Positions 43,559-57,247 of a stretch of 64,000 bases of DNA are shown one piece after another; the first letter of the stretch is position 1; each line of letters opens with the position of its first letter. The stretch lies in NCBI GenBank assembly GCA_002368355.1, contig AP018281.1:1116001-1180000 (forward strand), written 5' to 3'. This stretch comes from Chondrocystis sp. NIES-4102 (GTDB taxonomy: Bacteria; Cyanobacteriota; Cyanobacteriia; Cyanobacteriales; Xenococcaceae). Position numbers and translations under genes: made by a program. Under the pieces are notes generated by a model that ran no database searches, was not told the DNA's origin, and worked only from the letters and a program-made list of their open reading frames with translations.

Positions 43559-45010
43559 TTAAAAGCTAAATTCTGTTCTTACTGTTGCCACCCACAAAGT
43601 ATTAGCATTTTCAGGATCAGGATTAATAACTATAAATCCTCCTGGAGTAATCTCTAGATAGTCATTGACTTTTATACGATATAAAGCCTCAATATGCAGA
43701 GGAATTTCCCTTGTGACTAAATCAGCATCATCATGTTGGCTAATTACTGGCGGGATACCGATGATTATCCCTGCTAAATTATTTTCAGCCCCAAAATCTG
43801 GTAAAGCCAGGGTTAATGCACCATTAAGAATAGTTGCCTTAGCATTGCCATTTGCCTGTTGTTGTGCATGGGTGTACCCAAACCAACCGCCGATTTCTAA
43901 ACCAGAAGTAACTTGCCAATTGGCTTGTAAGCCGAAATTATCTGAAGTGGTGGCATTTTGTTCAAAAGGCTGATTAGCTGTTGCCACTCCTGTTGCACCC
44001 ATGAGATTAACATCATTATTACGTTGATAGGTGTGGGTATAAGTAGCAGCTAAAATTAATTCTTCTTCTGGTTGAATAACTATTTGAGCGATCGCACTTT
44101 GGGAACTTCTAAATATGCCTCTACCTGCTTGAGCATTAGCTACATCCTGATTATCTATAAAATAGCCAGCAAACCCCCCTATTTCTTCGCTAAATTGCTG
44201 TTTAATGCCGATTCCTGCCCCACCTGGGGCGCGTAAAGTAGCTGGATCTCTTCTAGCAAAGCGAGAAACTGCACCACTACTACTACTGGCAAAAGGATTT
44301 AAGACTTCACCCACATCATTAAGACTTACCCCTGTTGTACCTAAATTAATTTGCGTGCGATCGCCTTGGGAGAAGGTATAGGATAATTCTGATAATTCTG
44401 TTTGGTTATCGGTATCTCCATCTACGCTTAAGCGACTCATGGAAGTGTCTGTAGTTTCATCTAGACGTGGTAGGTTTCTATTTTCTAAACGTATTCTTAA
44501 AAGATCATCGCCCTCAAAACTACTATCAAAGTTTAATCTGGTACGATACCCAAAGGTAGTTTCACTCTCGTCTGCTGCCGTTAGGAAGAATAGTGTTTGA
44601 GCATTGAATTTGGTTGTGGTTGAAAATTGATTTGCTTCTAGTTGTTTTATTTTGTTGTTTATTGGCTTTAATTCTAAAGAGGAATTTTGTTGTATTTTTT
44701 GCCAGTTATTTGAATTTCGTGGGGATAAGGTTTTTTCGATTTTTTGTAAGCAATGATGTAAGCCTACGATAAATTGATAACGAGTTAATGGTTGATTGTT
44801 TGGTTGTCTTTGCCATTGTTGACTACACTTGTAACCTAGCAAATTATGTTGGAAAGTCGGCTCTTGCCAGTCTGTGGTATTAAGGTTTTTTAGTTTAGCT
44901 ACAGAAGGAATAGACTCTTGATTATTGGTATGAGCTAATGCTGCGCAGGGTATTAATAAGGATGCAAGTACAATAACTCCTGATTGAATTAATGTCTGAA
45001 TTTTTTTCAT
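43559..45010 (-). CDS. Outer-membrane porin, OprB/iron-uptake-porin type
   Basis: A 483-residue protein with a signal peptide (ending ALAH). A degenerate SLH-like segment comes first ('NLLGYKCSQQW', 'LTRYQFIVGLHHCLQKI'), then a short coiled linker and a beta-barrel of alternating strands ('FGYRTRLNFDSSFEGDD', 'YTHTYQRNN', 'LEIGGWFGYTHAQQQ') ending in the terminal Phe typical of outer-membrane proteins (VRTEFSF). This is the layout of cyanobacterial SLH-porins, which carry inorganic ions or small solutes. Confidence 0.82.
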   Translation of the reverse strand: MKKIQTLIQSGVIVLASLLIPCAALAHTNNQESIPSVAKLKNLNTTDWQEPTFQHNLLGYKCSQQWQRQPNNQPLTRYQFIVGLHHCLQKIEKTLSPRNSNNWQKIQQNSSLELKPINNKIKQLEANQFSTTTKFNAQTLFFLTAADESETTFGYRTRLNFDSSFEGDDLLRIRLENRNLPRLDETTDTSMSRLSVDGDTDNQTELSELSYTFSQGDRTQINLGTTGVSLNDVGEVLNPFASSSSGAVSRFARRDPATLRAPGGAGIGIKQQFSEEIGGFAGYFIDNQDVANAQAGRGIFRSSQSAIAQIVIQPEEELILAATYTHTYQRNNDVNLMGATGVATANQPFEQNATTSDNFGLQANWQVTSGLEIGGWFGYTHAQQQANGNAKATILNGALTLALPDFGAENNLAGIIIGIPPVISQHDDADLVTREIPLHIEALYRIKVNDYLEITPGGFIVINPDPENANTLWVATVRTEFSF

Positions 45011-45049: not shown

Positions 45050-46189
45050 TTAATTTAATTGAGGAGATAGCAGGTTATTAATTGGTAAGATACCTTGTAA
45101 AATTGGGTGACAATTTTTATGAGGATAATGAATAACTACAAGCTGCTCTACTGTATTTAAGGAAGTTTTATTTTTAAAGGTTTTTTGGATAATTTGTTTG
45201 ATGTGGTGATCATCGGTAATAATTAAACCAGTTACTAAATCATTGGAAGATTCAGAATTATTATTTAATTTTTGTTTATTATAGATTGTTTGTTGCCAAG
45301 TAGTAAGGAAATGATTTTGTGCTAAATGCAAATGTAAAATATCTGGATTGAAATTTAAAATTTGTTGAGATAATAATGTAGATGCTTGAGTATCATCGGA
45401 TAACAAAAAATTAATTAAGTTCCCTTTTACCAATTGAGTAAGATAGGAATAATCACATAAATCAAACGCGATCGCATTAGATAATAAAAGCCATCGCCAA
45501 CCAGTTTTACCTGCTTTCAACTTTGGTAAGCTTTCTTTTATCTGAGTAGTAAAATTGAGATACTTTAGTTGAGCAAATTTAGAATTGGGTAAAAACTCTA
45601 GGCAACTAATACCACAATTAGACTGCTGTAAACTATGATAATATTCTGGATTCAAACCAACTGCTGTACTAATTAACGCCCTATTCGTACCACCATGCGC
45701 CACAATTAAAATAGTTTCACCGCGATGTTTAGTTAAAAGTTTTTGCCAAAATTGCGTTACTTGTTCAAATAAATCTATAACTGGAAAAAAGGTATCATTA
45801 AAATTAAAAAGATGGGGTGTATTTTGCCAACAATTTGCAGCTTCGACATATTTTTCTTTCACCTCTTGATATAATAATCCCTGCCAATCTGACATTTTAA
45901 TTTCAGTTAAGCGATGATCAGTAAATATAGGTGGAATATAATTTTTATTTTGTTTTAAAACAGTAATAATCGCCTCAGTAGTTTGTTTAACCCTAGTTAA
46001 CGGGCTTAGATAAATTGCATCAAAATCATACTCTTGTAATGCTAATCCTGTTGCTAAAGCATCCTTATATCCTTTCTCCGTTAATCTCGATTCATCACTA
46101 CTACCTTGATATCTACCTTGTTCATTATAAGTAGTGCGAGCATGACGAACTAAAATTACTTTAGTAGAGGAAGATAAGAGATTATTCAT
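45050..46189 (-). CDS. Histidine phosphatase family protein with long C-terminal extension
   Basis: In this 379-residue protein, residues 1-205 form a phosphoglycerate-mutase-like domain: 'VILVRHARTTYNEQGRYQG' with catalytic His16 (RHA rather than the commoner RHG), 'YLSPLTRVKQT' and the second histidine in 'LIVAHGGTNRALI'. The extra ~170 residues are Asn/Gln/Leu-rich and unfamiliar. It may dephosphorylate a sugar phosphate or other small molecule. It heads a single-gene unit whose upstream region (46236-46264) carries the triple 11-nt repeat of the glycan island. Confidence 0.8.
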   Translation of the reverse strand: MNNLLSSSTKVILVRHARTTYNEQGRYQGSSDESRLTEKGYKDALATGLALQEYDFDAIYLSPLTRVKQTTEAIITVLKQNKNYIPPIFTDHRLTEIKMSDWQGLLYQEVKEKYVEAANCWQNTPHLFNFNDTFFPVIDLFEQVTQFWQKLLTKHRGETILIVAHGGTNRALISTAVGLNPEYYHSLQQSNCGISCLEFLPNSKFAQLKYLNFTTQIKESLPKLKAGKTGWRWLLLSNAIAFDLCDYSYLTQLVKGNLINFLLSDDTQASTLLSQQILNFNPDILHLHLAQNHFLTTWQQTIYNKQKLNNNSESSNDLVTGLIITDDHHIKQIIQKTFKNKTSLNTVEQLVVIHYPHKNCHPILQGILPINNLLSPQLN

Positions 46190-46235: not shown

Positions 46236-46264
46236 ATGAAATGTAAATGAAGTTTATATGAGAT
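46236..46264 (+). promoter_or_regulatory. Triple 11-nt direct repeat (candidate response-regulator operator), copy 1
   Basis: ATGAA at 46236, ATGAA at 46247 and ATGAG at 46258 are exactly 11 nt apart. The site lies 47 nt upstream of the histidine phosphatase start, on the strand opposite to the gene. OmpR/PhoB-family regulators bind direct repeats with this 11-bp period. Confidence 0.55.
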
Positions 46265-46432
46265 ATTTCTCATCTAATCAAAGAAAATAATTGTAAACCT
46301 TATATATTTTAAGGCGTTGGTAAATCTAAGTATAATTTTTACAGATCTTCGCAAGATTACAAAAAAGAAAACAAAGACCTATTGCCATATCGTAAAAAAC
46401 ATAGAGTAACAATACACAACCCTAACTAATTA

Positions 46433-48256
46433 CTAATAATATCCAACGGTTTGTTGTAAGCGATAAAGAGTAGCATAATGCTTACCCAATTCCATTAACT
46501 GTTGATGTGTTCCTCGTTCTAAAATTTTTCCCCCCTCAAGATAAAAAATTTGATCAGCATTTTGAGCAGTTCTTAAATCGTGGGTAATTAAAAAAGTAGT
46601 TGATGTTTGTGTCAGACGGTCTAAAGCATCGGTAACCAGACGTTCACTATGATTATCCAATCCAACTGTTGGTTCATCCAGAATTACAATGGGAGCATTA
46701 CGAATAGCAGCACGAGCGATCGCAATTCTTTGTCTTTGTCCCCCTGAAAGGGTCGATCCTCTTTCCCCAACTACAGTATCGTATCCTTCTGGAAGTGCCA
46801 TGATAAAATCGTGGGCATTAGCTAAACGAGCAGCCATTTCTATTTCTCTATTGGTAGCTTCCACACACCCATAGGCAATATTATCTTTAATACTGGCAGC
46901 AAAAAGAACACTTTCTTGTAAAACGATACTAATTTGTTTTCGCAGTGAATCGAGAGTATAGTCTTTAATGTCATGTTCATCAATTAATATACGACCCTGT
47001 TGAGGATCATAAAGACGTAATAAAAGACTAACCAAAGTAGATTTACCCGAACCTGAAGCACCTACTAAGGCAACCTTCTGTCCTGGGAAAACCGTTAAAG
47101 ATAAATTACTGAGAATATTTGCTTGATTTTCATAGGCAAAACTAACACAACGAAACTCTACCATACCCCCAAAGGGATGGGCAGGATAAGCAGATTTAGC
47201 ATCTCTAACTTCAGGTACAATTTCTAGTAAATCAACAATTCTTTCTCCAGAGGCGATCGCTTTGGCAATTTGTGCCGTATATTTGGCTAACTGACGCATG
47301 GGTTTAAAAGCAACCTTTAGATAGGTAATAAATACCAGTAAGTCACCTGGGGTAATAGTCCCAACCATCACTAACTGTACTCCTCGCCAAAGGACAACCG
47401 ATGTGGCGATCGCAACAAGCACTTCTACTGTACGCTCTTGTCCCGCCCTTAGTTTTTGAGTTTGCGCGCTTTCGTTAAGGCTCTTTAGATTTTGTTTGGC
47501 AAAGGTTTTTTCTAAGCGAGACTGTAGAGATAATGCTTGTACTACTTTGATTGCACCGATAGCCTCGGCTGCATTGGCTGCCATTACTCCTTCTCTTTGG
47601 CGTTGTTTCTTTGCCACTTGATGAATACGTTTACTCATAGTGGCGGTGGTAATTATAAATAAGGGAAAAATCATCACCGCAATTAAAGCTAATTGCCAAT
47701 TCAACCACATCATTACCCCAAGCATTCCTACCATTGTTAGGGTGTTGGTGATTAAAGGTAAAGCTGCAACAACTGTTACTTCCCTCAGTCTTTCGATATC
47801 GTAGGTAACACGAGTAATTAAATCTCCTGTCTTGGCTTTATTATGGAAAGAAAGAGACAGGCTTTGAATATGAGAATATAGGTTAGCCCGAATTTCACTT
47901 AAAACTCTTGTTGCAGCTACCGCCATTCCTGCTGTACTTATATAAGCCATCGTTCCCCTAAGTAAAGCCGTAATTACTAGGGCAATCACCAGCAGGGTTA
48001 ATAGATTTAGAACACTTAAGTTATCTAGAAATGGAACTTTTAAGTTTTCTACTTGAAACTCCTTAAAGATGATTTCATCAAAAATAAATTTTAGTGGCCA
48101 AGGCTCAAGGATATGTAAACCTGTTTCGGTTAACAATGCTAGGAAGGAAATAGTAATTAAGCCCCCTTGTCGCCGAATTTGAGGCATGAAATGCTTAACT
48201 ATACGGTTTAAGCCTGATATTCCCTGTTTTATGTTTTTAGGTCGTTTTTTTTTCAT
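46433..48256 (-). CDS. ABC exporter, fused membrane and ATPase domains (MsbA-like)
   Basis: In this 607-residue half-transporter, six transmembrane helices (about 30-330) precede an ATPase with Walker A 'GASGSGKSTL', signature LSGGQRQR, Walker B 'IVILDEP' and H-loop 'ITHD'. No N-terminal peptidase domain is present, so it is not a bacteriocin-type processing exporter. Type IV exporters of this size move lipids, lipid-linked glycans or drugs. Its place among glycosyltransferase genes suggests export of a glycolipid or glycan precursor. A weaker version of the repeat operator lies upstream. Confidence 0.85.
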   Translation of the reverse strand: MKKKRPKNIKQGISGLNRIVKHFMPQIRRQGGLITISFLALLTETGLHILEPWPLKFIFDEIIFKEFQVENLKVPFLDNLSVLNLLTLLVIALVITALLRGTMAYISTAGMAVAATRVLSEIRANLYSHIQSLSLSFHNKAKTGDLITRVTYDIERLREVTVVAALPLITNTLTMVGMLGVMMWLNWQLALIAVMIFPLFIITTATMSKRIHQVAKKQRQREGVMAANAAEAIGAIKVVQALSLQSRLEKTFAKQNLKSLNESAQTQKLRAGQERTVEVLVAIATSVVLWRGVQLVMVGTITPGDLLVFITYLKVAFKPMRQLAKYTAQIAKAIASGERIVDLLEIVPEVRDAKSAYPAHPFGGMVEFRCVSFAYENQANILSNLSLTVFPGQKVALVGASGSGKSTLVSLLLRLYDPQQGRILIDEHDIKDYTLDSLRKQISIVLQESVLFAASIKDNIAYGCVEATNREIEMAARLANAHDFIMALPEGYDTVVGERGSTLSGGQRQRIAIARAAIRNAPIVILDEPTVGLDNHSERLVTDALDRLTQTSTTFLITHDLRTAQNADQIFYLEGGKILERGTHQQLMELGKHYATLYRLQQTVGYY

Positions 48257-48280
48257 TTGTTTTTAGTTAAGTTTTGTCAA

Positions 48281-48310
48281 ATTGAAGCGTGACTTGAAAT
48301 GTTATTGAGA
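48281..48310 (+). promoter_or_regulatory. Imperfect triple repeat upstream of the ABC exporter, copy 2
   Basis: TTGAA at 48282, TTGAA at 48294 and TTGAG at 48305 are spaced 12 and 11 nt apart, about 25 nt upstream of the exporter start. It is the weakest of the six candidates but has the same order and orientation. The rest of 48257-48626 holds nothing I recognise. Confidence 0.35.
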
Positions 48311-48626
48311 ATAGCCAACCGTTTTACTAGTGTTTTAGACTATGATAAAATTGTTGAATAACTAAGCTACACTTAGCCTGATATGTTGGGTGCTTTTTAT
48401 CTAAATTTACTACCTTTACTATTCTTAATTTTTTATAATTCAAGCCAGCCAACCTTTTACAGCTTTTATTAATGCTAAAAGTGGCTTCAACTTAACAAGA
48501 CTTCAAATAGCCTTATTGACGAAATATTCTTACGTTAATACTTCAATTTGTCCTAAAGGTTTACGATAAATTATATAAAAGAAAAAAGAAATAGGGTAAA
48601 AGAGCAAAGCAGCTTCGGTGCAATAT

Positions 48627-49652
48627 TTAAATGGAAGATTCATATTTATTGGAGTCTACAAAGTTACCCACAATAACGGATGACTGCTTACTAATTACAT
48701 AATTAACCTTTCTCTCAATTGCCACCAAGACTTTTTCTATCCAAGTATAATAACCACCAAAAGAAAGCTGACGAACTAACGGGCGTAAGAAAGCCTGATG
48801 ACGGCGTTGTCCTAAACGACTGTAGCGTTTTTTAAAGTATTTATCCTTTTTAGTTAGATCCCACTTTTGCATAAAGTGTTCCAAGCTGGCAACTTCCCAA
48901 GCATCACTCCAACGCAACATAAAGTAAGTTAAATCTGAGAATTCAAATCCAGAATCAGGGACATAGGTAGTTACCGAATCAGGTTGACAATAAATTTTCC
49001 CGCCTGCATTAATAACCGACATGGAGAAATCAATATGTTCTCTAGTGCTGAGTAATTTCTCATCCAACAAACCAATAGTATTAAAGATGTTGGTGCGAAC
49101 TAACATACAGTGAAACTCAGCAAATTCACATTCTCGTCTTATCAATTGGTCTTGAATTTCAGCTACAGGACGATTCACAAAATAATGTTTTTCGTGAACT
49201 TTACGTCGCTTTTTGTCATTTTTAATCTCTAAGATAATACGAGCTTCTCCTCCTGCCAAATGAACTTTACTATGTAGTTGTTTGCCGATACAAACCAAAG
49301 GACATACTACGGTTGCGTCAGTTTCTGCTGCACAATTAACTAATTTTTCCAACCAGCCTGGGGAGACATGGATATCATTATCAACGAAGACAACATATTC
49401 TGTTTTAACGTGCTGTAAACCGATATTTCTCGCTTGATTAGGGGAGAGATACTGTTGAGTTCTAACTAATTTGAAACCCTTTTCTATTGCTTGAGCCTCT
49501 AAATATTGTCGAATATGTTTAGGGGAATTACCATCAACATACACTAAATCAAAAGGAATTGAAGTATATTGATAAATACTGGCTAAAGATTCTCTTGTAT
49601 AACTAAAACGTTCTCGCGGTACAACGACTAATGTTACTTTTTTGTTATTCAT
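48627..49652 (-). CDS. Glycosyltransferase family 2
   Basis: A 341-residue GT-A-fold enzyme. 'YVVFVDNDIHVSPGWLEKL' contains the DxD-type metal/nucleotide-sugar motif (DND). The N-terminal 'DLVYVDGNSPKHIRQYLEA' is the first Rossmann-like unit, and 'LLSTREHIDFSMSV' carries the acceptor-side acidic residues. It probably adds a sugar to a surface polysaccharide or glycolipid in the cytoplasm. It lies 31 nt downstream of the GT4 gene in the same operon. Confidence 0.85.
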   Translation of the reverse strand: MNNKKVTLVVVPRERFSYTRESLASIYQYTSIPFDLVYVDGNSPKHIRQYLEAQAIEKGFKLVRTQQYLSPNQARNIGLQHVKTEYVVFVDNDIHVSPGWLEKLVNCAAETDATVVCPLVCIGKQLHSKVHLAGGEARIILEIKNDKKRRKVHEKHYFVNRPVAEIQDQLIRRECEFAEFHCMLVRTNIFNTIGLLDEKLLSTREHIDFSMSVINAGGKIYCQPDSVTTYVPDSGFEFSDLTYFMLRWSDAWEVASLEHFMQKWDLTKKDKYFKKRYSRLGQRRHQAFLRPLVRQLSFGGYYTWIEKVLVAIERKVNYVISKQSSVIVGNFVDSNKYESSI

Positions 49653-49683
49653 AATTAATTGTTAGTTGTTAATTAAATACTTT

Positions 49684-50892
49684 CTACCCAGCTAAAACCT
49701 GCATCTGAGGTTGAGTATCTACTGTTAAAACACGGTCATAAATCTCCTTCCAGTTAGCCTGTTCGACAGCAGGATTTAAATCTTGGACTATTTTTTGTTT
49801 AGCTAATTTACCAAAATTTTGTCTAAGTAAGGGGCGATTAATCAATTGAGCGATCGCATCCCTTAATTCCTCACTATTATAAGGATTAACCAATAAACCA
49901 TTTACCCCAGAATCAATAATTTCGGCGATCGCATCAACATTTGTACCTATTACTGCTCTTTGAGCTAACATCGCTTCTAATAGGGCATTAGGGCAACCAT
50001 CATTGAGGGAGGGTATAGCAAAGATATCCATATAGGGTAAATATGCCAATGCTTCCTCTCGGCTTATTTTACCTGTAATGACTATTTTGTCTTCTAAACC
50101 ACTATTGGTTAATTCTTGTTGCCAATACTCTTTTTCTTTTGCCACAAATTCCCCAACGAATAATAGGGTGAATTCAGTTGCGATATTTTGGCAGGCATCC
50201 AAGAGATATTCTATACCTTTTTTATCTCTAAAATTGCCAACAGAACCAATAACTATTCCTTTGAGTTTAGTAACTAAGGATGGGGTGGGTAAATTGTTAA
50301 AATCTAGTGGATTAATAGAATTTAAGAATGCGGAAGATTTATTAGTAATAATAGGAGTAAATAATCTGGCACGGCGCATTAAATCTTGACTAACAAAAGT
50401 AGTCCAGTCTGAATTTTCCAAAGTCCAAGCTATCTGTTTTTGCTGTTGAGAATCGAATATATGTTTATGTAAGTCCGCGCCACGCACACTATTGATTACT
50501 GGTAGATTATTTTCTTTGGCTAACATGGTAGTTAGAAAACCAGTTTCATTGATAAAGAAGGCATGAACCAATTCAAATTTATACTGTTTGCTTATAGTAG
50601 TTAGCTGTCCATAAATATCCATTAAGTAATCTTGATCACGGGCAACTGTAGAACGAACTGCAGGATATAATCGATGAACAGTAATATCATCTTGAACCGT
50701 AGTTTCACAACGAGAACGATAAAATTTTCCTGCTTGAGCGAGTTTTCTTTCTTTACGAAATACTGCACGAAAAACCGCTACATGAACTTTATATCCTAGT
50801 TCGGTTAACAATAAGGCAATTCGTTTGGCTGATACTCCTACTCCACCCACATCAGGAGGAAATTCTTGAGCGGTAAGACAAATGGTTTTCAT
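49684..50892 (-). CDS. Glycosyltransferase family 4
   Basis: A 402-residue GT-B enzyme. The N-terminal acceptor domain begins 'CLTAQEFPPDVGGVGVSAKR'. The C-terminal donor domain has 'IGSVGNFRDKKGIEYLLDAC' and the EX7E motif region 'PSLNDGCPNALLEAMLAQ'. It should transfer a nucleotide-activated sugar with retention of configuration. First gene of a two-gene operon with the GT2 gene; its promoter region carries the triple repeat at 50936. Confidence 0.87.
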   Translation of the reverse strand: MKTICLTAQEFPPDVGGVGVSAKRIALLLTELGYKVHVAVFRAVFRKERKLAQAGKFYRSRCETTVQDDITVHRLYPAVRSTVARDQDYLMDIYGQLTTISKQYKFELVHAFFINETGFLTTMLAKENNLPVINSVRGADLHKHIFDSQQQKQIAWTLENSDWTTFVSQDLMRRARLFTPIITNKSSAFLNSINPLDFNNLPTPSLVTKLKGIVIGSVGNFRDKKGIEYLLDACQNIATEFTLLFVGEFVAKEKEYWQQELTNSGLEDKIVITGKISREEALAYLPYMDIFAIPSLNDGCPNALLEAMLAQRAVIGTNVDAIAEIIDSGVNGLLVNPYNSEELRDAIAQLINRPLLRQNFGKLAKQKIVQDLNPAVEQANWKEIYDRVLTVDTQPQMQVLAG

Positions 50893-50935
50893 TTTATTGA
50901 TGATTAACTGCTATGTTGTATTGTTTCAAGTTTTA

Positions 50936-50964
50936 ATTAATTGGGCGTGAAATTTTTATGAGAG
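50936..50964 (+). promoter_or_regulatory. Triple 11-nt direct repeat, copy 3
   Basis: ATTAA at 50936, GTGAA at 50947 and ATGAG at 50958 are spaced exactly 11 nt apart, 44 nt upstream of the GT4 start, on the strand opposite to the gene. The element order matches copies 1, 4, 5 and 6. Confidence 0.5.
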
Positions 50965-51500
50965 AATTTTAATTTAATTAAGATTATTGAAAGAAAGTTA
51001 GCGAGATATTTTTTTATAGCTGGCAAATGGTATGTTTCTTATATATTTTGATAATTGGTTAGCTTATGTAAATATAGAAAACTATTGAAAAGTATAATGA
51101 TTATCTATAATTATTTTTTTGGCATATTATATATCTGATCAATAATTTAAAAACTATCAGCAAAATATACATATTTAACTTAAGACAAAACTTACCCATT
51201 TACAATTTTAATATTTAATTTTTTCATTAATAAAGTTAAAATCCTAGGGTTTAGACTGTAATGATTATGATTTTGTAGAAAAAATATGTTGTAATTATGG
51301 GTTATATTTTACTAATTATATAGATCAACTTAAAGAATAAAGCTATTGATATTTCTTTACCCCTTGGTTGAGTACAACACATATATAAAAATAAATTGAT
51401 CAAAAAGTTAATAATATTTTGCCATTCATATATCAAGAGGTAAAAAAAAATTATGTTTACAAGAACTATAAAAAATAGAAATTGTTAATAAATAACAGTA

Positions 51501-51538
51501 GCGATTAGCCCGAAGGGCTGCGCCAGAGCGATCGCAGC
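51501..51538. repeat. GCGATTAGCCC hairpin-HIP1 repeat
   Basis: GCGATTAGCCCGAAGGGCTG followed closely by GCGATCGC. The AGCCC/GGGCT part folds into a small hairpin. A sister copy lies at 57278-57312. Confidence 0.7.
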
Positions 51539-51553
51539 AAGTTTAGATAATTT

Positions 51554-52708
51554 TTAAACTGATACTAATTGCTTCGTGATTAATTGTTTTAAATAATATC
51601 TGGTATAATTAACTCCATCTAGATTAAGGTCTAAATGATTAGGATTTTGTCCAAGATAATCTATAATTTTATGAGCAAAATTTTCTGGGTGTAAATCTTC
51701 AGGATGAATCATTCTTACACGTCCTAAATTGTTCAATTTTTTAAGACGAGTTAGTTGTTCTTGATCATTATTTCCTTGAAATGCCATCATCATCGCCTTC
51801 ACCCCAGTACTTAAAACATTCATTGTGGTGTTGTAGCCAGACATTCCAATAGATAATTCTGCCTGCTGCATATAATTGAGGAAATTGGGAGTATAACGTT
51901 CAATAGTTATATTATCGAGATTTATAGTCATTTCTTGCAGTTTGAATAATAGCTCATCTGGGCTAAAAGCACCTGTAAATACTTGAATATGATGGGGAAT
52001 CTTAGCTTTCAAAATTGTTGCTGCATTAGCTACGCATTCTAATAAATCATGTCCAAATCTTCCCCCCCCAACACTAACTAAAATCAAAGGTTGCTTAACT
52101 ATTAATTGAGGTTGAGGCAAAGGTTGAACTACATAACCTGTATAATAAACAGGACAGTTTAAATCATCAAGGCGAGAAAAGCTGAGATCAAGTTGAATAA
52201 AATTAGGATCGCCGTGGATTAATAACATATCAAAATACTTATTAATTAAACGACAAACTTTTTCCTCATGACGTTGTTGATTTTGTTTAGTAACAACAAT
52301 ATCTCGAACACTAGAGACAATTTTTATTCCTCTGGCTTTAGCTTTTTCCAGCAAAGGAATCAATTCAAAAGAAAAGCGTCTTCTGCCAAATGGAAATAAC
52401 TCAATAATTAAGATGTCAGGTTGAAAGCGATCGCAAATATTTAAGAGTTGATTTGTTCTAAGCTGTTCTACTTCCAACATACTTAAACTTTCATCTACAG
52501 GTTGAAGTTCGTTAAACTCACTATCAGTTTTAACCCCAGGAATATTAACCACCTCTATTTTTTCTGGAAACTTAAATTCTTCAATTACCTGTCCTCCATT
52601 TACCAAACAAATCCGAAAATCCTCAATCAGACCTTTAACTATTTCTACACTGCGAATTAAATGACCCATGCCAAGAATATGTTGGCAATAAAACATTACT
52701 TTTTTCAT
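51554..52708 (-). CDS. MurG-like glycosyltransferase (COG4671-type), copy 1
   Basis: A 384-residue GT-B-fold protein. 'VMFYCQHILGMGHLIRSVEI' is the glycine/histidine-rich N-terminal loop, and 'LILVSVGGGRFGHDLLECV' and 'ELSIGMSGYNTTMNVLSTG' are the MurG-like donor-site motifs. It is related to the next gene upstream and lies 47 nt downstream of it, so the pair is one operon, probably from an old duplication. The sugar transferred and its acceptor are unknown. Confidence 0.78.
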   Translation of the reverse strand: MKKVMFYCQHILGMGHLIRSVEIVKGLIEDFRICLVNGGQVIEEFKFPEKIEVVNIPGVKTDSEFNELQPVDESLSMLEVEQLRTNQLLNICDRFQPDILIIELFPFGRRRFSFELIPLLEKAKARGIKIVSSVRDIVVTKQNQQRHEEKVCRLINKYFDMLLIHGDPNFIQLDLSFSRLDDLNCPVYYTGYVVQPLPQPQLIVKQPLILVSVGGGRFGHDLLECVANAATILKAKIPHHIQVFTGAFSPDELLFKLQEMTINLDNITIERYTPNFLNYMQQAELSIGMSGYNTTMNVLSTGVKAMMMAFQGNNDQEQLTRLKKLNNLGRVRMIHPEDLHPENFAHKIIDYLGQNPNHLDLNLDGVNYTRYYLKQLITKQLVSV

Positions 52709-52755
52709 GGTTAATTATTAATTTTTATGATAATTTTAAAAGTATTAACGTCTTC

Positions 52756-54030
52756 CTAAGCCAATTTAAGAGCCAATTCCTGCTCCTGATCAAAACAATA
52801 AGAATTATATAAAAGCCTTGCTAAATAATTAGTAACTCTGGGTAATCCTGCAAAATCTATCTTGCAAGTAGAATTATAACTTTTAGTCTGATTAAGACTC
52901 ATAATTAAAGTTTCCATCAATAAACTAGAATTAAGTAAATCAGGATGAATCATTTTAACCCAACCTGCTTTAGCCATACTTTGTGCGCGGATTAATTGTT
53001 CCTTTCCTGGAGAAACACGGGGGACTACGATCGCTTTTTTGGCTTTTTGCAATACTTCTGTAATTGTATTGTAGCCACACATAGAAATCACCGCATCAGC
53101 AGTATTAACATAGCTCATCAAATCATTAGTAAATTCTAAGACAGTTACCCCAGGACATTGTAATGCGGTACGATGTATTTGTTGTTGTTGATCGAGGGGC
53201 ATCTCAGCCCCACAAAAGATTAAAGTACGAATTTTATTTTGTATAAAATAATCCCGTTGTTGAGCTAAACCTTGTAGATAATTAGCAATTAAATAATAAC
53301 CATCTTCACCCCCACCAGGAGTTACTAAAACCAACTTTTCCTCGGGTAACATATCCAATTCCTGACGAATAGCACGGCGATTTTTTAAACCAGATTCCTT
53401 GCGCAAATAACCACAAAAACGTACCTTAGAAATAAGTTCTGCATGAAAGCGGTATTGCTGACAAAGATCAAAAACCTCTTGCATTCCCACGACCAAAATG
53501 CGATCGTAAATTGACTCTACTATCTGGTAGTAGTTTTCTTTTTGCCATTCGCGAATAGTATTTTCTGGAGTATCTAAAATATCGCGTAATAATAAAACAA
53601 AATTAGTTGCAGGTAAATAAGCTTTTACATAATTAATTGTAAGTTCTAATTCCCCTTTAATTCCTAATGGTTTTTTATCCACTAAAACCAAATCAGGTTG
53701 ATAGTTTTTAACTGCTGCTAAAATTAATTCTGAGCGTAATTTTAAAGTAGATTCAATATCTGCGTTAAGAAACTTAACTGTCATTTCTCCTGATGAGCCA
53801 CGATTTAAACAAGGAAGTTTAATGTAGTCTAAACCTTTAGGTAAACGAAAGCTATGCAGCATTGGTGAACCAGATACTAATAATATAGAAAGATTAGGAA
53901 TACACTTAAGTAAGTACTTGCAAATAGCCAACATTCTGCTTATATTGCCAAGCCCGTAAGCATCGTGAGAATATACTAAAATTCTGCGATATTTGCCTGT
54001 AATTATTGCTGAAGGAAGAAGATGAGCCAT
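52756..54030 (-). CDS. MurG-like glycosyltransferase (COG4671-type), copy 2
   Basis: A 424-residue paralogue of the following gene: 'ILVYSHDAYGLGNISRMLAI' replaces the GMGHLIRS loop with GLGNISR, and 'LVLVTPGGGEDGYYLIANYL' and 'AVISMCGYNTITEVLQKAKK' are the matching donor-site motifs. It is first in its operon. The start lies 117 nt from the triple repeat at 54147. It probably builds the same surface glycan as the neighbouring transferases. Confidence 0.78.
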   Translation of the reverse strand: MAHLLPSAIITGKYRRILVYSHDAYGLGNISRMLAICKYLLKCIPNLSILLVSGSPMLHSFRLPKGLDYIKLPCLNRGSSGEMTVKFLNADIESTLKLRSELILAAVKNYQPDLVLVDKKPLGIKGELELTINYVKAYLPATNFVLLLRDILDTPENTIREWQKENYYQIVESIYDRILVVGMQEVFDLCQQYRFHAELISKVRFCGYLRKESGLKNRRAIRQELDMLPEEKLVLVTPGGGEDGYYLIANYLQGLAQQRDYFIQNKIRTLIFCGAEMPLDQQQQIHRTALQCPGVTVLEFTNDLMSYVNTADAVISMCGYNTITEVLQKAKKAIVVPRVSPGKEQLIRAQSMAKAGWVKMIHPDLLNSSLLMETLIMSLNQTKSYNSTCKIDFAGLPRVTNYLARLLYNSYCFDQEQELALKLA

Positions 54031-54146
54031 GATAATAACGCTCTGGTAAATGAAATTTCAAGTGTTAATTGCCAGTAATTAAACCAAGTATTTAAATAGT
54101 TACTTAGGATTTCTTTCTTTTGTTACTATCAGTTTGACAAGCTTCA

Positions 54147-54175
54147 ATGAACTACCTATGAAACTTTGATGAGAA
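54147..54175 (+). promoter_or_regulatory. Triple 11-nt direct repeat, copy 4
   Basis: ATGAA at 54147, ATGAA at 54158 and ATGAG at 54169 are 11 nt apart. A TTGACAA-n2-TTCAAT block precedes it, shared with copy 5 over nearly 50 nt. It lies upstream of the MurG-like operon, on the opposite strand to the gene. Confidence 0.6.
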
Positions 54176-54243
54176 AAATTTCACTTGTATAATAAGTTGT
54201 TACCAAGTTTGTTTAAGGCAACAACTTATCAGATATTTATTAA

Positions 54244-55047
54244 TTACCCATCAAGGTTTGTATCTAAGGGCAAAGAGTAATAGGCAATGCCTTCAAAATT
54301 ATAATTACTTAGATTATCTTCAACAAAAGTTTTTTCTGCTTCATTGGGAGTATAAAAATGTACTCCAATAGTAGGCTCAAAGAAACGATAAACAGGAATT
54401 GAACCTTCGATGGGAGTTTCATAAGCATAAAATGCTGTCCCTTCAAATTGAAATTCATCTAAGTTCTGTTGAATATTATCCCTTTCGGTTTCATTAGTGG
54501 TATATAAATGAACTCCTGTAGTGGCATTAAAGAAACGATACACTTCTTGTGTTTCTCCAGTGAGAGGATCTACTGTTCTATAAGATTCCCCCTCCAAAGT
54601 ATAATTAGTCAAATTATTTTCAACAAAATTTCTTTCTTCGGCATTGGCAGTGTAAAAATGCACACCTGCATCAGGATTATAAAAACGGAAAACAGTCTCT
54701 CCACCTAAATCATCAATAACATCGTCGTCATTTAAATCATCATCCATCCCGTCATCATTGCTAATAGGTGGATCAATAACATTGTCGTCATCTATCCCGT
54801 CATCATTGTTAATAGGTGGATCAATAACATTGTCGTCATCTAAATCGTCATCTATCCCGTCATCATTGTTAATAGGTGGATCAATAACATTGTCGTCATC
54901 TAAATCATCATCTATCCCGTCATCATTGCTAATAGGTGGATCAATAACATTGTCGTCATCTATCCCGTCATCATTGCTAACAGGTGGATCAATAACATTG
55001 TCGTCATCTAAAGCATTAAAAAAAACTTTTTGTTCTTCAAAATTCAT
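54244..55047 (-). CDS. Acidic-repeat protein with three DUF5648 repeats
   Basis: In this 267-residue protein, residues 14-105 are five copies of a 16- or 20-residue Asp-rich unit (DDDNVIDPPISNDDGI, with or without DDDL). Residues ~119-157, 168-206 and 214-252 are three DUF5648 repeats (VYRFFNATTGVHLYTTNETE and relatives). Both regions suggest a calcium-dependent, extracellular adhesive or matrix protein. No N-terminal signal peptide is present, so export would need type I secretion or another route. Its start is 110 nt from a triple repeat. Confidence 0.8.
   Translation of the reverse strand: MNFEEQKVFFNALDDDNVIDPPVSNDDGIDDDNVIDPPISNDDGIDDDLDDDNVIDPPINNDDGIDDDLDDDNVIDPPINNDDGIDDDNVIDPPISNDDGMDDDLNDDDVIDDLGGETVFRFYNPDAGVHFYTANAEERNFVENNLTNYTLEGESYRTVDPLTGETQEVYRFFNATTGVHLYTTNETERDNIQQNLDEFQFEGTAFYAYETPIEGSIPVYRFFEPTIGVHFYTPNEAEKTFVEDNLSNYNFEGIAYYSLPLDTNLDG
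54733..55008 (-). repeat. Tandem DNA repeat coding for the acidic region
   Basis: Five near-identical 48- or 60-nt units encode the Asp-rich repeats of the DUF5648 protein. The DNA identity between units is high, so copy number is likely to vary between strains. Confidence 0.85.
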
Positions 55048-55156
55048 AATTTATTCCCGTGCTGCTCAAATAATTATTATCAACTAGGCAAGATTATTGA
55101 TAAACCAGACTAAATCTGTTTTTACTTACCTACTATGAACAGATTGACAATTTTCA

Positions 55157-55185
55157 ATTAAGCAAGCGTGAAACTGAGATGAGAA
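55157..55185 (+). promoter_or_regulatory. Triple 11-nt direct repeat, copy 5
   Basis: ATTAA at 55157, GTGAA at 55168 and ATGAG at 55179 are spaced exactly 11 nt apart. The site sits in the divergent region between the DUF5648 gene and the response-regulator gene, so it could control both, including autoregulation. Confidence 0.6.
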
Positions 55186-55329
55186 TAGTCTCATAAAAAT
55201 CAACATCAAGAAAAAACTATGAAATCCATACTGCAGATCTCGATTTTAATAAATCCTTAATTTTGAGTTGTTAGAGTGTTAATCCATACGTCAATGTTGC
55301 CATTGGTAAGAAATTCGTCAATATAAAAG

Positions 55330-56004
55330 ATGAAGCAAATTTTAATTGTAGAAGACGAAGTTAGAATTGCAATGTTTATCAAAAAAGGCTTGCAAGCAAA
55401 AGGATACTTAACTAGCGTTGCGGAAAATGCCAAGAGTGCTGCAACTTTACTAATCAATCAACAATTCGATTTAGCATTATTAGATTTAGGTTTACCCCAT
55501 AAAGATGGCTTAACTGTTTTACAAGAATGGCGAAAACAAGGAATAAATTTTCCCGTTATTATTTTGACAGCAAGAGATGATGTAACAGATAAGGTAGCAG
55601 GTTTAAGAGGTGGTGCGGATGATTATATAACCAAACCGTTTAATTTCGCTGAATTACTAGCTCGTATTGAAGTTCGACTAAAGATCAATATGTCAACTTC
55701 TAGCAAAAATGCCAATAAAATCCAACGAGGTAACATGATTCTTGATCTACGTACCCGTAAAATTCAAGTAAATAATGAGGAGGTGGAATTATCTGCTCGT
55801 GAATTTACAATGGTAGAAATATTTTTTCGTCACCCTGAGCAAATAGTGACGAGAGAGCGATTATTAAATTTAGTTTGGGGTTACGATTATTGTCCTGCTT
55901 CCAATATTGTCGATGTTTATATTGGCTGCTTGCGCAAAAAGTTAGGTAATAAATCTTTTGAAACAGTTAGAGGCGTGGGGTATCGTTTGGGGTTGGGGGA
56001 GTAA
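55330..56004 (+). CDS. Orphan OmpR-family response regulator
   Basis: A 224-residue regulator. Receiver: acidic pair Glu8/Asp9, phospho-acceptor Asp52 (LLDLGLP) and the conserved Lys in ITKPFNF. DNA-binding winged helix: 'ELSAREFTMVEIFFRHPEQI', recognition-helix region 'SNIVDVYIGCLRKKLG' and 'TVRGVGYRLG'. No histidine kinase is adjacent, so its partner is elsewhere. It sits amid the glycan island and between two of the triple 11-nt repeats; I infer that it controls the island. Confidence 0.88.
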   Translation: MKQILIVEDEVRIAMFIKKGLQAKGYLTSVAENAKSAATLLINQQFDLALLDLGLPHKDGLTVLQEWRKQGINFPVIILTARDDVTDKVAGLRGGADDYITKPFNFAELLARIEVRLKINMSTSSKNANKIQRGNMILDLRTRKIQVNNEEVELSAREFTMVEIFFRHPEQIVTRERLLNLVWGYDYCPASNIVDVYIGCLRKKLGNKSFETVRGVGYRLGLGE

Positions 56005-56077
56005 GGGAGAATATAAAGCCTGACAATGATACAACAATACTTATCGTTTAGATTATTAAAGGTCAAATGAAAAACTT

Positions 56078-56107
56078 CTCACTTAAGTTTCATCACCTTT
56101 TCATTGA
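56078..56107 (-). promoter_or_regulatory. Triple 11-nt direct repeat, copy 6 (inverted, facing the epimerase)
   Basis: On the minus strand ATGAA, ATGAA and GTGAG are 11 nt apart (plus-strand TTCAT at 56100 and 56089, CTCAC at 56078). The site is 136 nt upstream of the epimerase start. It is flipped just as the gene is flipped, so its orientation relative to the gene matches the other copies. Confidence 0.55.
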
Positions 56108-56242
56108 TTAAGAGGAAGCTATTAATAGTAGTAAGTTGGTTAAATATTAACTAATTTAGTTTGATATTTCTCGCCTCACTTTGCACAATATGGCTTTATA
56201 TAATTCCTTTTCATTGAAGAAACTTATTTAGGAGAGTTAGAG

Positions 56243-57247
56243 ATGAAAATTCTTGTCACTGGTGTAGCTGGCTTTATTGGTTATCATTTAGCCACAAGAT
56301 TATTAGCTGAAGGTAATCATGTTTATGGAATAGATAACCTTAACGATTACTATGATGTTAGTCTTAAACAGGCTCGTTTACAACAATTATTACCCCAGAG
56401 TAATTTTAATTTTGAATATATAGATATTAGCGATCGCGCTTTAATTGCCAAATTATTTGCACAGTATCATTTTGATATAGTTGTTCATTTAGCTGCTCAA
56501 GCTGGTGTACGTTATTCCCTACAAAATCCTCATGCTTATGTAGATAGTAACTTAATTGGTTTTACTAATATTTTAGAAGGTTGTCGTCACCAACAGATTG
56601 AACATTTAATTTTTGCTTCTTCAAGCTCGGTATATGGCGCAAATACTAAAGTCCCTTTTGCCATAGGGGATAATGTCGATCGCCCTGTATCTCTTTATGC
56701 AGCTACTAAAAAAGCTAATGAATTGATGGCTCATGCTTACAGTCATTTGTATCAGATACCTATAACGGGGGTGCGTTTTTTTACTGTCTACGGTCCTTGG
56801 GGTAGACCTGATATGGCATACTTTAAGTTTACAAGAGCGATCGCTCAAGATCAACCGATCAATATTTATAATTTTGGCAGAATGAAGCGAGATTTTACTT
56901 ATATTGATGATGTTGTTGAAGCAGTAACTAGAATTATTAATAGTAAGCCTGCAACTGGGAATGGACAACCACCTTATAAAATTTATAATTTAGGCAATCA
57001 TCACCCAGTAGAATTGAAGGAATTTATTGCCATAATTGAAGATCTTATGGGTAAATCTGCTAAAAAGAATCTGCTTCCTATGCAACCTGGGGATGTTGTT
57101 GCTACTTATGCGGATGTTCAAGAGTTAATAACAGATTTTGATTTTCAACCCAGCACTTCTATTGCTTCTGGGTTAGAAAAATTTGTTAGTTGGTATCTCA
57201 AGTATTATCGAGTTTCTTTGAGATCTTTAAGTGCTGTGGCTATCTGA
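56243..57247 (+). CDS. UDP-glucuronate 4-epimerase-like NAD-dependent epimerase
   Basis: A 334-residue extended SDR. NAD-binding GVAGFIG (7-13), 'SSSSVYG', and the catalytic 'YAATKKANE' (YxxxK) are present, with 'VRFFTVYGPWGRPDMAYFKF' marking the CapI/LspL subgroup that converts UDP-glucuronate to UDP-galacturonate. A GGAGAG Shine-Dalgarno precedes the start. It would supply activated acidic sugar for the glycosyltransferases nearby. Substrate choice is inferred from subgroup motifs; related UDP-sugar epimerases are an alternative. Confidence 0.85.
   Translation: MKILVTGVAGFIGYHLATRLLAEGNHVYGIDNLNDYYDVSLKQARLQQLLPQSNFNFEYIDISDRALIAKLFAQYHFDIVVHLAAQAGVRYSLQNPHAYVDSNLIGFTNILEGCRHQQIEHLIFASSSSVYGANTKVPFAIGDNVDRPVSLYAATKKANELMAHAYSHLYQIPITGVRFFTVYGPWGRPDMAYFKFTRAIAQDQPINIYNFGRMKRDFTYIDDVVEAVTRIINSKPATGNGQPPYKIYNLGNHHPVELKEFIAIIEDLMGKSAKKNLLPMQPGDVVATYADVQELITDFDFQPSTSIASGLEKFVSWYLKYYRVSLRSLSAVAI

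Follow-up and report, generated by a model that had tools for sequence, protein, structure and literature searches.

The 64-kb window analysed here (the whole stretch from 1,116,001 to 1,180,000 of contig AP018281.1 of Chondrocystis sp. NIES-4102) carries five copies of a repeat element that is very likely the operator of a two-component exopolysaccharide regulon extending across much of the cyanobacterial class; we infer binding, phosphotransfer, activation and product from sequence. Read towards the gene, its consensus is RTGAR-N6-CTCAY-N6-TTCAY-N6-TTMAT, that is, four half-sites (boxes 1-4) at 11-nt steps with box 1 inverted. The initial annotation of the window had described triple 11-nt direct repeats at 46236, 50936, 54147, 55157 and 56078, together with a weaker copy of 12/11 spacing at 48282, all in the same orientation relative to the gene behind them. 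At the five sites the 11-nt period and the uniform orientation are confirmed, however, the operator has four boxes rather than three: inspection of both strands revealed an inverted pentamer 11 nt farther out at four of the five (it is degenerate at 50936). A weight matrix trained on 45 sites, all of them from other genomes (the full matrix holds 51 sites), gives the five sites 30.5-43.6 bits (Table 1), the runner-up position anywhere in the window scoring 1.6 bits. The 48282 copy is not a site, the best score nearby on the gene-facing strand being -21.5 bits (51-site matrix). The distances from element to start codon are, in window order, 46, 43, 116, 109 and 138 nt. The site at 55157 lies between divergent genes and is oriented toward a DUF5648 gene, not toward the gene of RR1, the response regulator encoded from 55330.

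Written as RTGAA-N6-ATGAR-N6-RTGAR, the triplet first noticed is exact at 46236, 54147 and 56078 and has two mismatches at 50936 and 55157. With up to three mismatches it occurs in the window at chance frequency (26 matches vs 26.97 expected from shuffles). The four-box pattern has 6 matches in the whole genome and none in the reversed control. The triplet alone is unconvincing, while chance falls far short of explaining the extended four-box element. Chance repetition, which the initial annotation had named as a possible refutation and to which the triplet frequency would point, is refuted for the five sites by the matrix trained on other genomes, by the absence of reversed-sequence matches at 15 bits or more and by order- and class-wide conservation, and has next to no probability left; for 48282 it is upheld. 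The boxes 1-3 pattern has 6 exact matches in the 5.0-Mb genome, 4 of them inside the window, and 5 matches with one mismatch, two of which look real (C1:431891 and the 50936 site); the other three (C1:1028510, C1:1717584 and C1:3865622) were rejected, with at most 7.4 bits in the surrounding regions at a threshold of 15. The reversed control of this pattern, at up to one mismatch, gives 6 matches vs 11 for the pattern itself, that of a slightly different pattern, RTGAR-N6-YTCAY-N6-TTCAY, none vs 6 exact matches. Searched without the inverted box, boxes 2-4 give 8 exact matches, namely 7 believed sites and one (C2:150925) set aside as looking like simple sequence.

The conservation of the sites in related genomes that the initial annotation had looked to extends to many genomes of the order and the class. 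The profile was built on 51 sites from 63 regions, the training sites being picked by boxes 1-3. In 103 regions (1.40 Mb), most of them fetched because they bear a site, 126 sites scoring 15 bits or more were counted in 56 genomes, and none in the reversed sequence; a background of 80 loci (1.31 Mb) from other phyla, obtained by the contig search with RR1, holds no site (best score 11.7 bits). No site of the 126 lies wholly within an open reading frame (ORF) of more than 150 amino acids (aa), and an ORF starts within 450 nt downstream of 109 of them (median 104 nt). Each box, when omitted from the selection, reappears (box 1 in 80/88, box 2 in 80/80, box 3 in 82/87 and box 4 in 101/109 matches, with none in reversed sequence), in the same regions that served for the profile, mostly chosen for a site; of the 18 boxes 2-4 matches from the 32 regions that were selected by their regulator, 15 have box 1.

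Position-wise counts, which use 125 of the 126 sites (one is too near a region end), show A at position 49 in 108 sites, T at position 53 in 113 and T-A in 68. The last 11-nt unit ends at position 43 and the conserved T, often T-A, begins 9-10 nt later, which would put it in the place of a -10 element and the last half-site in that of a -35 element; judged by eye, the downstream A and T are present at all five window sites. On the basis of this placement, the regulator probably recruits RNA polymerase. The constant spacing from a -10-like T and the uniform orientation before genes would also suit a promoter of an alternative sigma factor rather than the operator of a regulator. We regard this as very improbable: four copies of a 5-nt core with an 11-nt period, one of them inverted, are not of sigma type, and the presence of the element tracks a clade of OmpR/PhoB-type regulators, whose gene the sites often adjoin. 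In many copies box 1 can pair with box 2 (ATGAG-N6-CTCAT), with four of seven stem positions pairing in at least 118 of the 125 sites; that this palindrome is an RNA hairpin or terminator is nonetheless hardly credible, because one inner pair is A-C in 67/125 sites. Another inner pair is unpaired in 67/125, the covariation of the two inner pairs that a hairpin requires is not seen among the 125 sites, the direct boxes would stay unexplained, and the sites lie upstream of genes, none of them wholly within an ORF of more than 150 aa. Opposite-strand operators overlap by 16 nt in two cases (L283:5591-5650 and L247:9975-10034), where a single palindrome provides box 1 of one operator and box 2 of its partner; this points to box 1 as an independent half-site. 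The members of a further opposite-strand pair (L186:365-438) overlap by 2 nt. An array may be common to divergent units. In G118, an operator-bearing stretch 3' of the regulator gene (L255:6333-6748) forms head-to-tail repeats (period 142, 2.9 copies, 100% identity), which may be a promoter amplification or an effect of the assembly.

The element's presence tracks the OmpR/PhoB-type clade to which RR1 belongs, and a regulator of this clade is very probably the binder, as had been suggested for the product of the gene at 55330; the argument is one of co-occurrence, adjacency and synteny. RR1 is of OmpR/PhoB type by both of its domains (PF00072, 92.4 bits at a cut-off of 30.2; PF00486, 80.3 bits at a cut-off of 26.2), and its clade is set off from other OmpR-type proteins encoded in the same genomes by at least 51% vs at most 46% identity among the full-length matches listed (60 relatives). 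Clade membership was assigned at E ≤1e-60, with RR1 as the query in the order and its paralogue RR2 as the query in the class outside the order. Among the 388 genomes of the order, 72 have the exact four-box pattern, 129 the clade and 69 both (Fisher p ~3e-36); among 215 genomes of the class outside the order, the pattern is found in 31, the clade in 69 and both in 29 (p ~1e-14), these p values overstating independence, the genomes being related. With the window's family left aside, 52 genomes of the order have both, 2 the motif only, 56 the clade only and 251 neither. The reversed pattern, counted by eye, occurs in 2 of 388 and in 0 of 242 genomes, which bounds the effect of genome size on the co-occurrence. 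A clade regulator gene and the nearest site are no more than 10 kb apart in 31 of the 52 genomes of the order outside the window's family and in 23 of the 29 outside the order.

In many relatives a module is found which consists of a kinase, the regulator and sometimes a receiver-only gene, with sites at the starts of transcription units, and which adjoins some or all of the genes for UDP-glucose dehydrogenase, GT28_C, GT1 and GT2 glycosyltransferases, exporter, histidine phosphatase, porin and epimerase; the regulators of some relatives have no such glycan cluster within the fetched stretch. Taking as target the longest ORF within reach, by which some assignments may be wrong, the commonest family is the GT28_C type (26 of the 126 sites, in 23 genomes), followed by UDP-glucose dehydrogenase (9 sites), epimerase (8), receiver-only proteins (8), GT1 (7), RTX-repeat proteins (7), the exporter (6 sites in 5 genomes) and unannotated small families (6 sites, and 5 in 4 genomes). 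Histidine phosphatase, porin and kinase-like targets are rarer (2 sites each, one such pair being in a single genome) and the remainder are single. A sulfotransferase gene stands behind an operator in one genome (L190:4887-5723). The receiver-only protein (L012:12071-12457 and orthologues) has an operator of its own in 8 genomes and directly follows the clade regulator in 7 of these 8; a role in feedback or as a phosphate sink is possible.

Within the window, operator A precedes the histidine-phosphatase gene, is conserved before the L157 orthologue and probably also serves the SomB-type porin gene; an L163 protein with PF04966, 45% identical to this porin, carries an operator of its own (L163 site 12492). 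Operator B precedes the GT family 1 and GT family 2 genes, and a site stands before the orthologue in L157, L196, L197 and L198, and a weaker one in L202 and L210. Operator C precedes the two GT28_C-type genes and operator E the epimerase gene, whose orthologue is preceded by a site in 7 further genomes. The exporter gene, originally counted among the site-bearing targets, has no operator of its own in this genome by the matrix scan, though its counterparts do in the five genomes mentioned. One regulon with mostly glycan targets, as initially proposed, is retained; its confinement to the island is not, given three sites elsewhere in the genome. One of them (C1:3915466) precedes another GT28_C-type glycosyltransferase gene (PF04101), followed by two genes that look glycosyltransferase-like by translation; C1:429169 precedes the gene of a small protein without a Pfam match, while C1:431891 overlaps the end of RR2 and precedes a receiver-only gene. 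No site was found in the 4.3 kb surrounding the strain's own UDP-glucose dehydrogenase (C1:2326089, with one TAG within the match).

The regulators compared (n=56, 215-300 aa, at least 48% identity) include two, L251:6318 and L252:7628, without the winged-helix end; in these a clade-like receiver is joined to an unrelated C-terminal part, with a receiver-only gene adjoining. A kinase-like gene (at least 40% identity) lies within 4.5 kb of 52 of the 56, not so for RR1. All seven closest orthologues of RR1 (in G002, G003, G004, G006, G009, G021 and G026) have an adjoining kinase of one family, split over two ORFs in G003; its place is taken in the window by the DUF5648 gene and operator D. The kinase-less state of RR1 noted in the initial description looks like a loss. 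The sole kinase of the family in this genome (C1:429472-431001) is encoded beside RR2, 0.74 Mb from RR1, the pair being flanked by two sites; the runner-up is 32% identical, over the catalytic half only. The regulator of G010 (L167) is a second one that has no kinase in the fetched stretch, and that of G011 lies near a contig end.

Several findings weigh against the proposed regulon. The choice of regions favoured sites, those 32 regions that were fetched for the regulator holding 32 of the 126; 17 of the 126 have no gene start in reach, and the co-occurrence counts ignore phylogeny and genome size. The exact pattern is lacking from 60 of the 129 clade genomes in the order (56 of 108 outside the window's family) and from 40 of the 69 outside it, which may be due to the strictness of the pattern. 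A site without a clade regulator at E 1e-60 was found in G016, G173 and G217 (order) and in G458 and G592 (class); the operator of G016, a genome rated 100% complete, reaches 35 bits (L211:6951) and may be a relic or have another reader. The clade may extend beyond cyanobacteria, given a regulator of Nonomuraea gerenzanensis (NZ_LT559118, 11.85 Mb; 2324728-2325378) that is 51.8% identical to RR1 (E 7e-64), at the lower edge of clade identity; the other relatives of RR1 in the plasmid search have at most 44% identity among the best 15 of 148 records. A P-type cation ATPase gene (L245:10541-13294), a target that does not look glycan-related, stands behind an operator in a single genome. Finally, RR1 groups with the island clade (support 100/99) but has a long branch (0.52), and where the clade has [VI]GY, in a segment NIVDVY[VI]GYLRKK present in 46 of the 56 regulators and presumably part of the recognition helix, it reads IGC. 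RR1 may be served by the kinase beside RR2, or it may be decaying. The sites would then belong solely to RR2 and its kinase (C1:429472-431891), RR1 being a decaying paralogue without control. The kinase adjoins RR2 alone, two sites flank the pair, and the long branch and altered GY segment of RR1 fit as well; RR1, however, retains both domains above the Pfam cut-offs, aligns with RR2 over its full length and keeps its place in the island, in which the orthologues occur together with sites. We consider sole ownership by RR2 rather unlikely.

For this regulon we propose that a membrane histidine kinase (HAMP-HisKA-HATPase) would phosphorylate the OmpR/PhoB-type response regulator, which, once phosphorylated, would bind the four 5-nt half-sites, the inverted one and then the three direct ones, on one helix face and, by analogy with PhoB, recruit RNA polymerase from the -35 region. 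A tandem dimer touching the polymerase would occupy boxes 3-4, while the facing boxes 1-2 would hold a second dimer of unusual geometry. The predicted targets comprise nucleotide-sugar enzymes, glycosyltransferases, the MsbA/HepA-like exporter, the porin, RTX-repeat and DUF5648 proteins and the receiver-only protein, which could feed back on the kinase. As a dehydrogenase and an epimerase are among the targets, an acidic exopolysaccharide, one with uronic acid, is the most likely product. In Chondrocystis the kinase beside RR2 may serve both RR1 and RR2. A bolder version, in which an uncharacterised class-wide master system of acidic exopolysaccharide uses a composite operator new to the family (one inverted and three direct boxes for two dimers of different geometry), the palindrome serves divergent promoters, the receiver-only partner drains phosphate from the kinase and RR1 and RR2 share the surviving kinase, is tentative, and we hold it to be somewhat short of probable as a whole.

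Among known systems, PhoB and SphR are similar in being OmpR/PhoB-type regulators that act on repeats with an 11-nt period. The passages on Pho boxes in PMC1906773 describe direct repeats of 8 bp separated by 3-bp linkers, with a minimum of two in E. coli and of three for SphR, those of E. coli lying 10 bp upstream of the -10 element. The Pho cores (CTGTACTA or CTTAACCT) differ from the TTCAT found here, where there is in addition an inverted fourth box, and while the Pho regulon, with its CTTAACCT-type core, covers phosphate genes, the identified targets here are mostly glycan genes. Neither RR1 (182.5 bits) nor RR2 (181.1 bits) reaches the cut-off of the PhoB equivalog TIGR02154 (296.2 bits). 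RR1 shares a protein superfamily with RpaB, NblR and RppA, and scores below the respective NCBIfam cut-offs (154.7/330, 167.6/300 and 174.1/250 bits), that of PmrA likewise not being reached. The boxes of BvrR, the OmpR-type regulator of Brucella abortus, are scattered over ~140 bp with omp25 as target, unlike the fixed 11-nt array. A further parallel is the synechan cluster of Synechocystis PCC 6803, for which the relevant part of PMC8205485 reports the two-component pair XssS/XssR, the STAND protein XssQ binding AAGTTXXAC, and Wzx/Wzy genes. There, as here, the exopolysaccharide cluster of a cyanobacterium includes a two-component system, and its genes are preceded by consensus sites; the binder of the AAGTTXXAC box, however, is the STAND protein, and the consensus differs (STAND genes were not searched for). 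A link to the heterocyst DevR/HepK system is conceivable in view of the receiver-only protein and the HepA-like exporter.

None of the papers listed in searches of open-access literature, which leaves out most subscription papers, names the operator or the regulator clade, and the one exopolysaccharide of cyanobacteria whose transcriptional control was found there in detail is synechan, from a single model strain. With a near-exact operator, a defined regulator clade and targets listed for many genera, the wider system becomes directly testable. The inverted-plus-direct operator raises the question of how an OmpR/PhoB-type protein, usually acting on direct repeats, fills four sites, and the absence of a kinase beside RR1 offers a natural test of cross-phosphorylation and of the decay of a duplicated regulator.

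Table 1. Operators and neighbouring genes in the window (positions are those of the window; matrix scores with all 51 sites and with own-genome sites left out).
Feature	Position	Strand	Basis or remark
Operator A	46236..46273	-	39.8 bits; 38.5 with own sites left out; box 1 at the 46273 end
Operator B	50936..50973	-	36.6 bits; 37.0 with own sites left out; box 1 degenerate (ATTAA)
Operator C	54147..54184	-	44.1 bits; 43.6 with own sites left out
Operator D	55157..55194	-	33.9 bits; 30.5 with own sites left out; faces the DUF5648 gene
Operator E	56067..56104	+	42.0 bits; 41.4 with own sites left out; conserved T of the -10 position at 56120
RR1, OmpR/PhoB-type response regulator (receiver and winged helix), probable binder	55330..56004	+	Pfam Response_reg and Trans_reg_C, clade, tree
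NAD-dependent epimerase, nucleotide-sugar type	56243..57247	+	PF01370
DUF5648 protein with Asp-rich tandem repeats	54244..55047	-	PF18885; in the place of the relatives' histidine-kinase gene
GT28a, GT28_C-type glycosyltransferase	52756..54030	-	PF04101
GT28b, GT28_C-type glycosyltransferase	51554..52708	-	PF04101
GT family 1 glycosyltransferase	49684..50892	-	PF00534/PF13692
GT family 2 glycosyltransferase	48627..49652	-	PF00535
MsbA/HepA-like ABC exporter	46433..48256	-	PF00664 and PF00005
Histidine-phosphatase superfamily protein	45050..46189	-	PF00300
Outer-membrane porin, SomB-type	43559..45010	-	NF033921

The exporter scores below the NCBIfam cut-offs of both MsbA (467.5 of 602 bits) and HepA (393.3 of 725 bits). 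The N-terminal half of the DUF5648 protein is encoded by a tandem Asp-rich array (54712-55012) with units of 48, 60 or 108 nt, possibly variable in length. The window holds 60 copies of GCGATCGC vs 0.19 expected, a sequence which we take to be HIP1, a cyanobacterial marker; SomB-type porins, too, are presumably at home in cyanobacteria. GT28_C-type glycosyltransferases 51-55% identical to GT28a are encoded on plasmids of Candidatus Manganitrophus (CP114562, CP114560, CP114557 and CP114554), the next plasmid match after these being 34% identical among the best 15 of 273 records.

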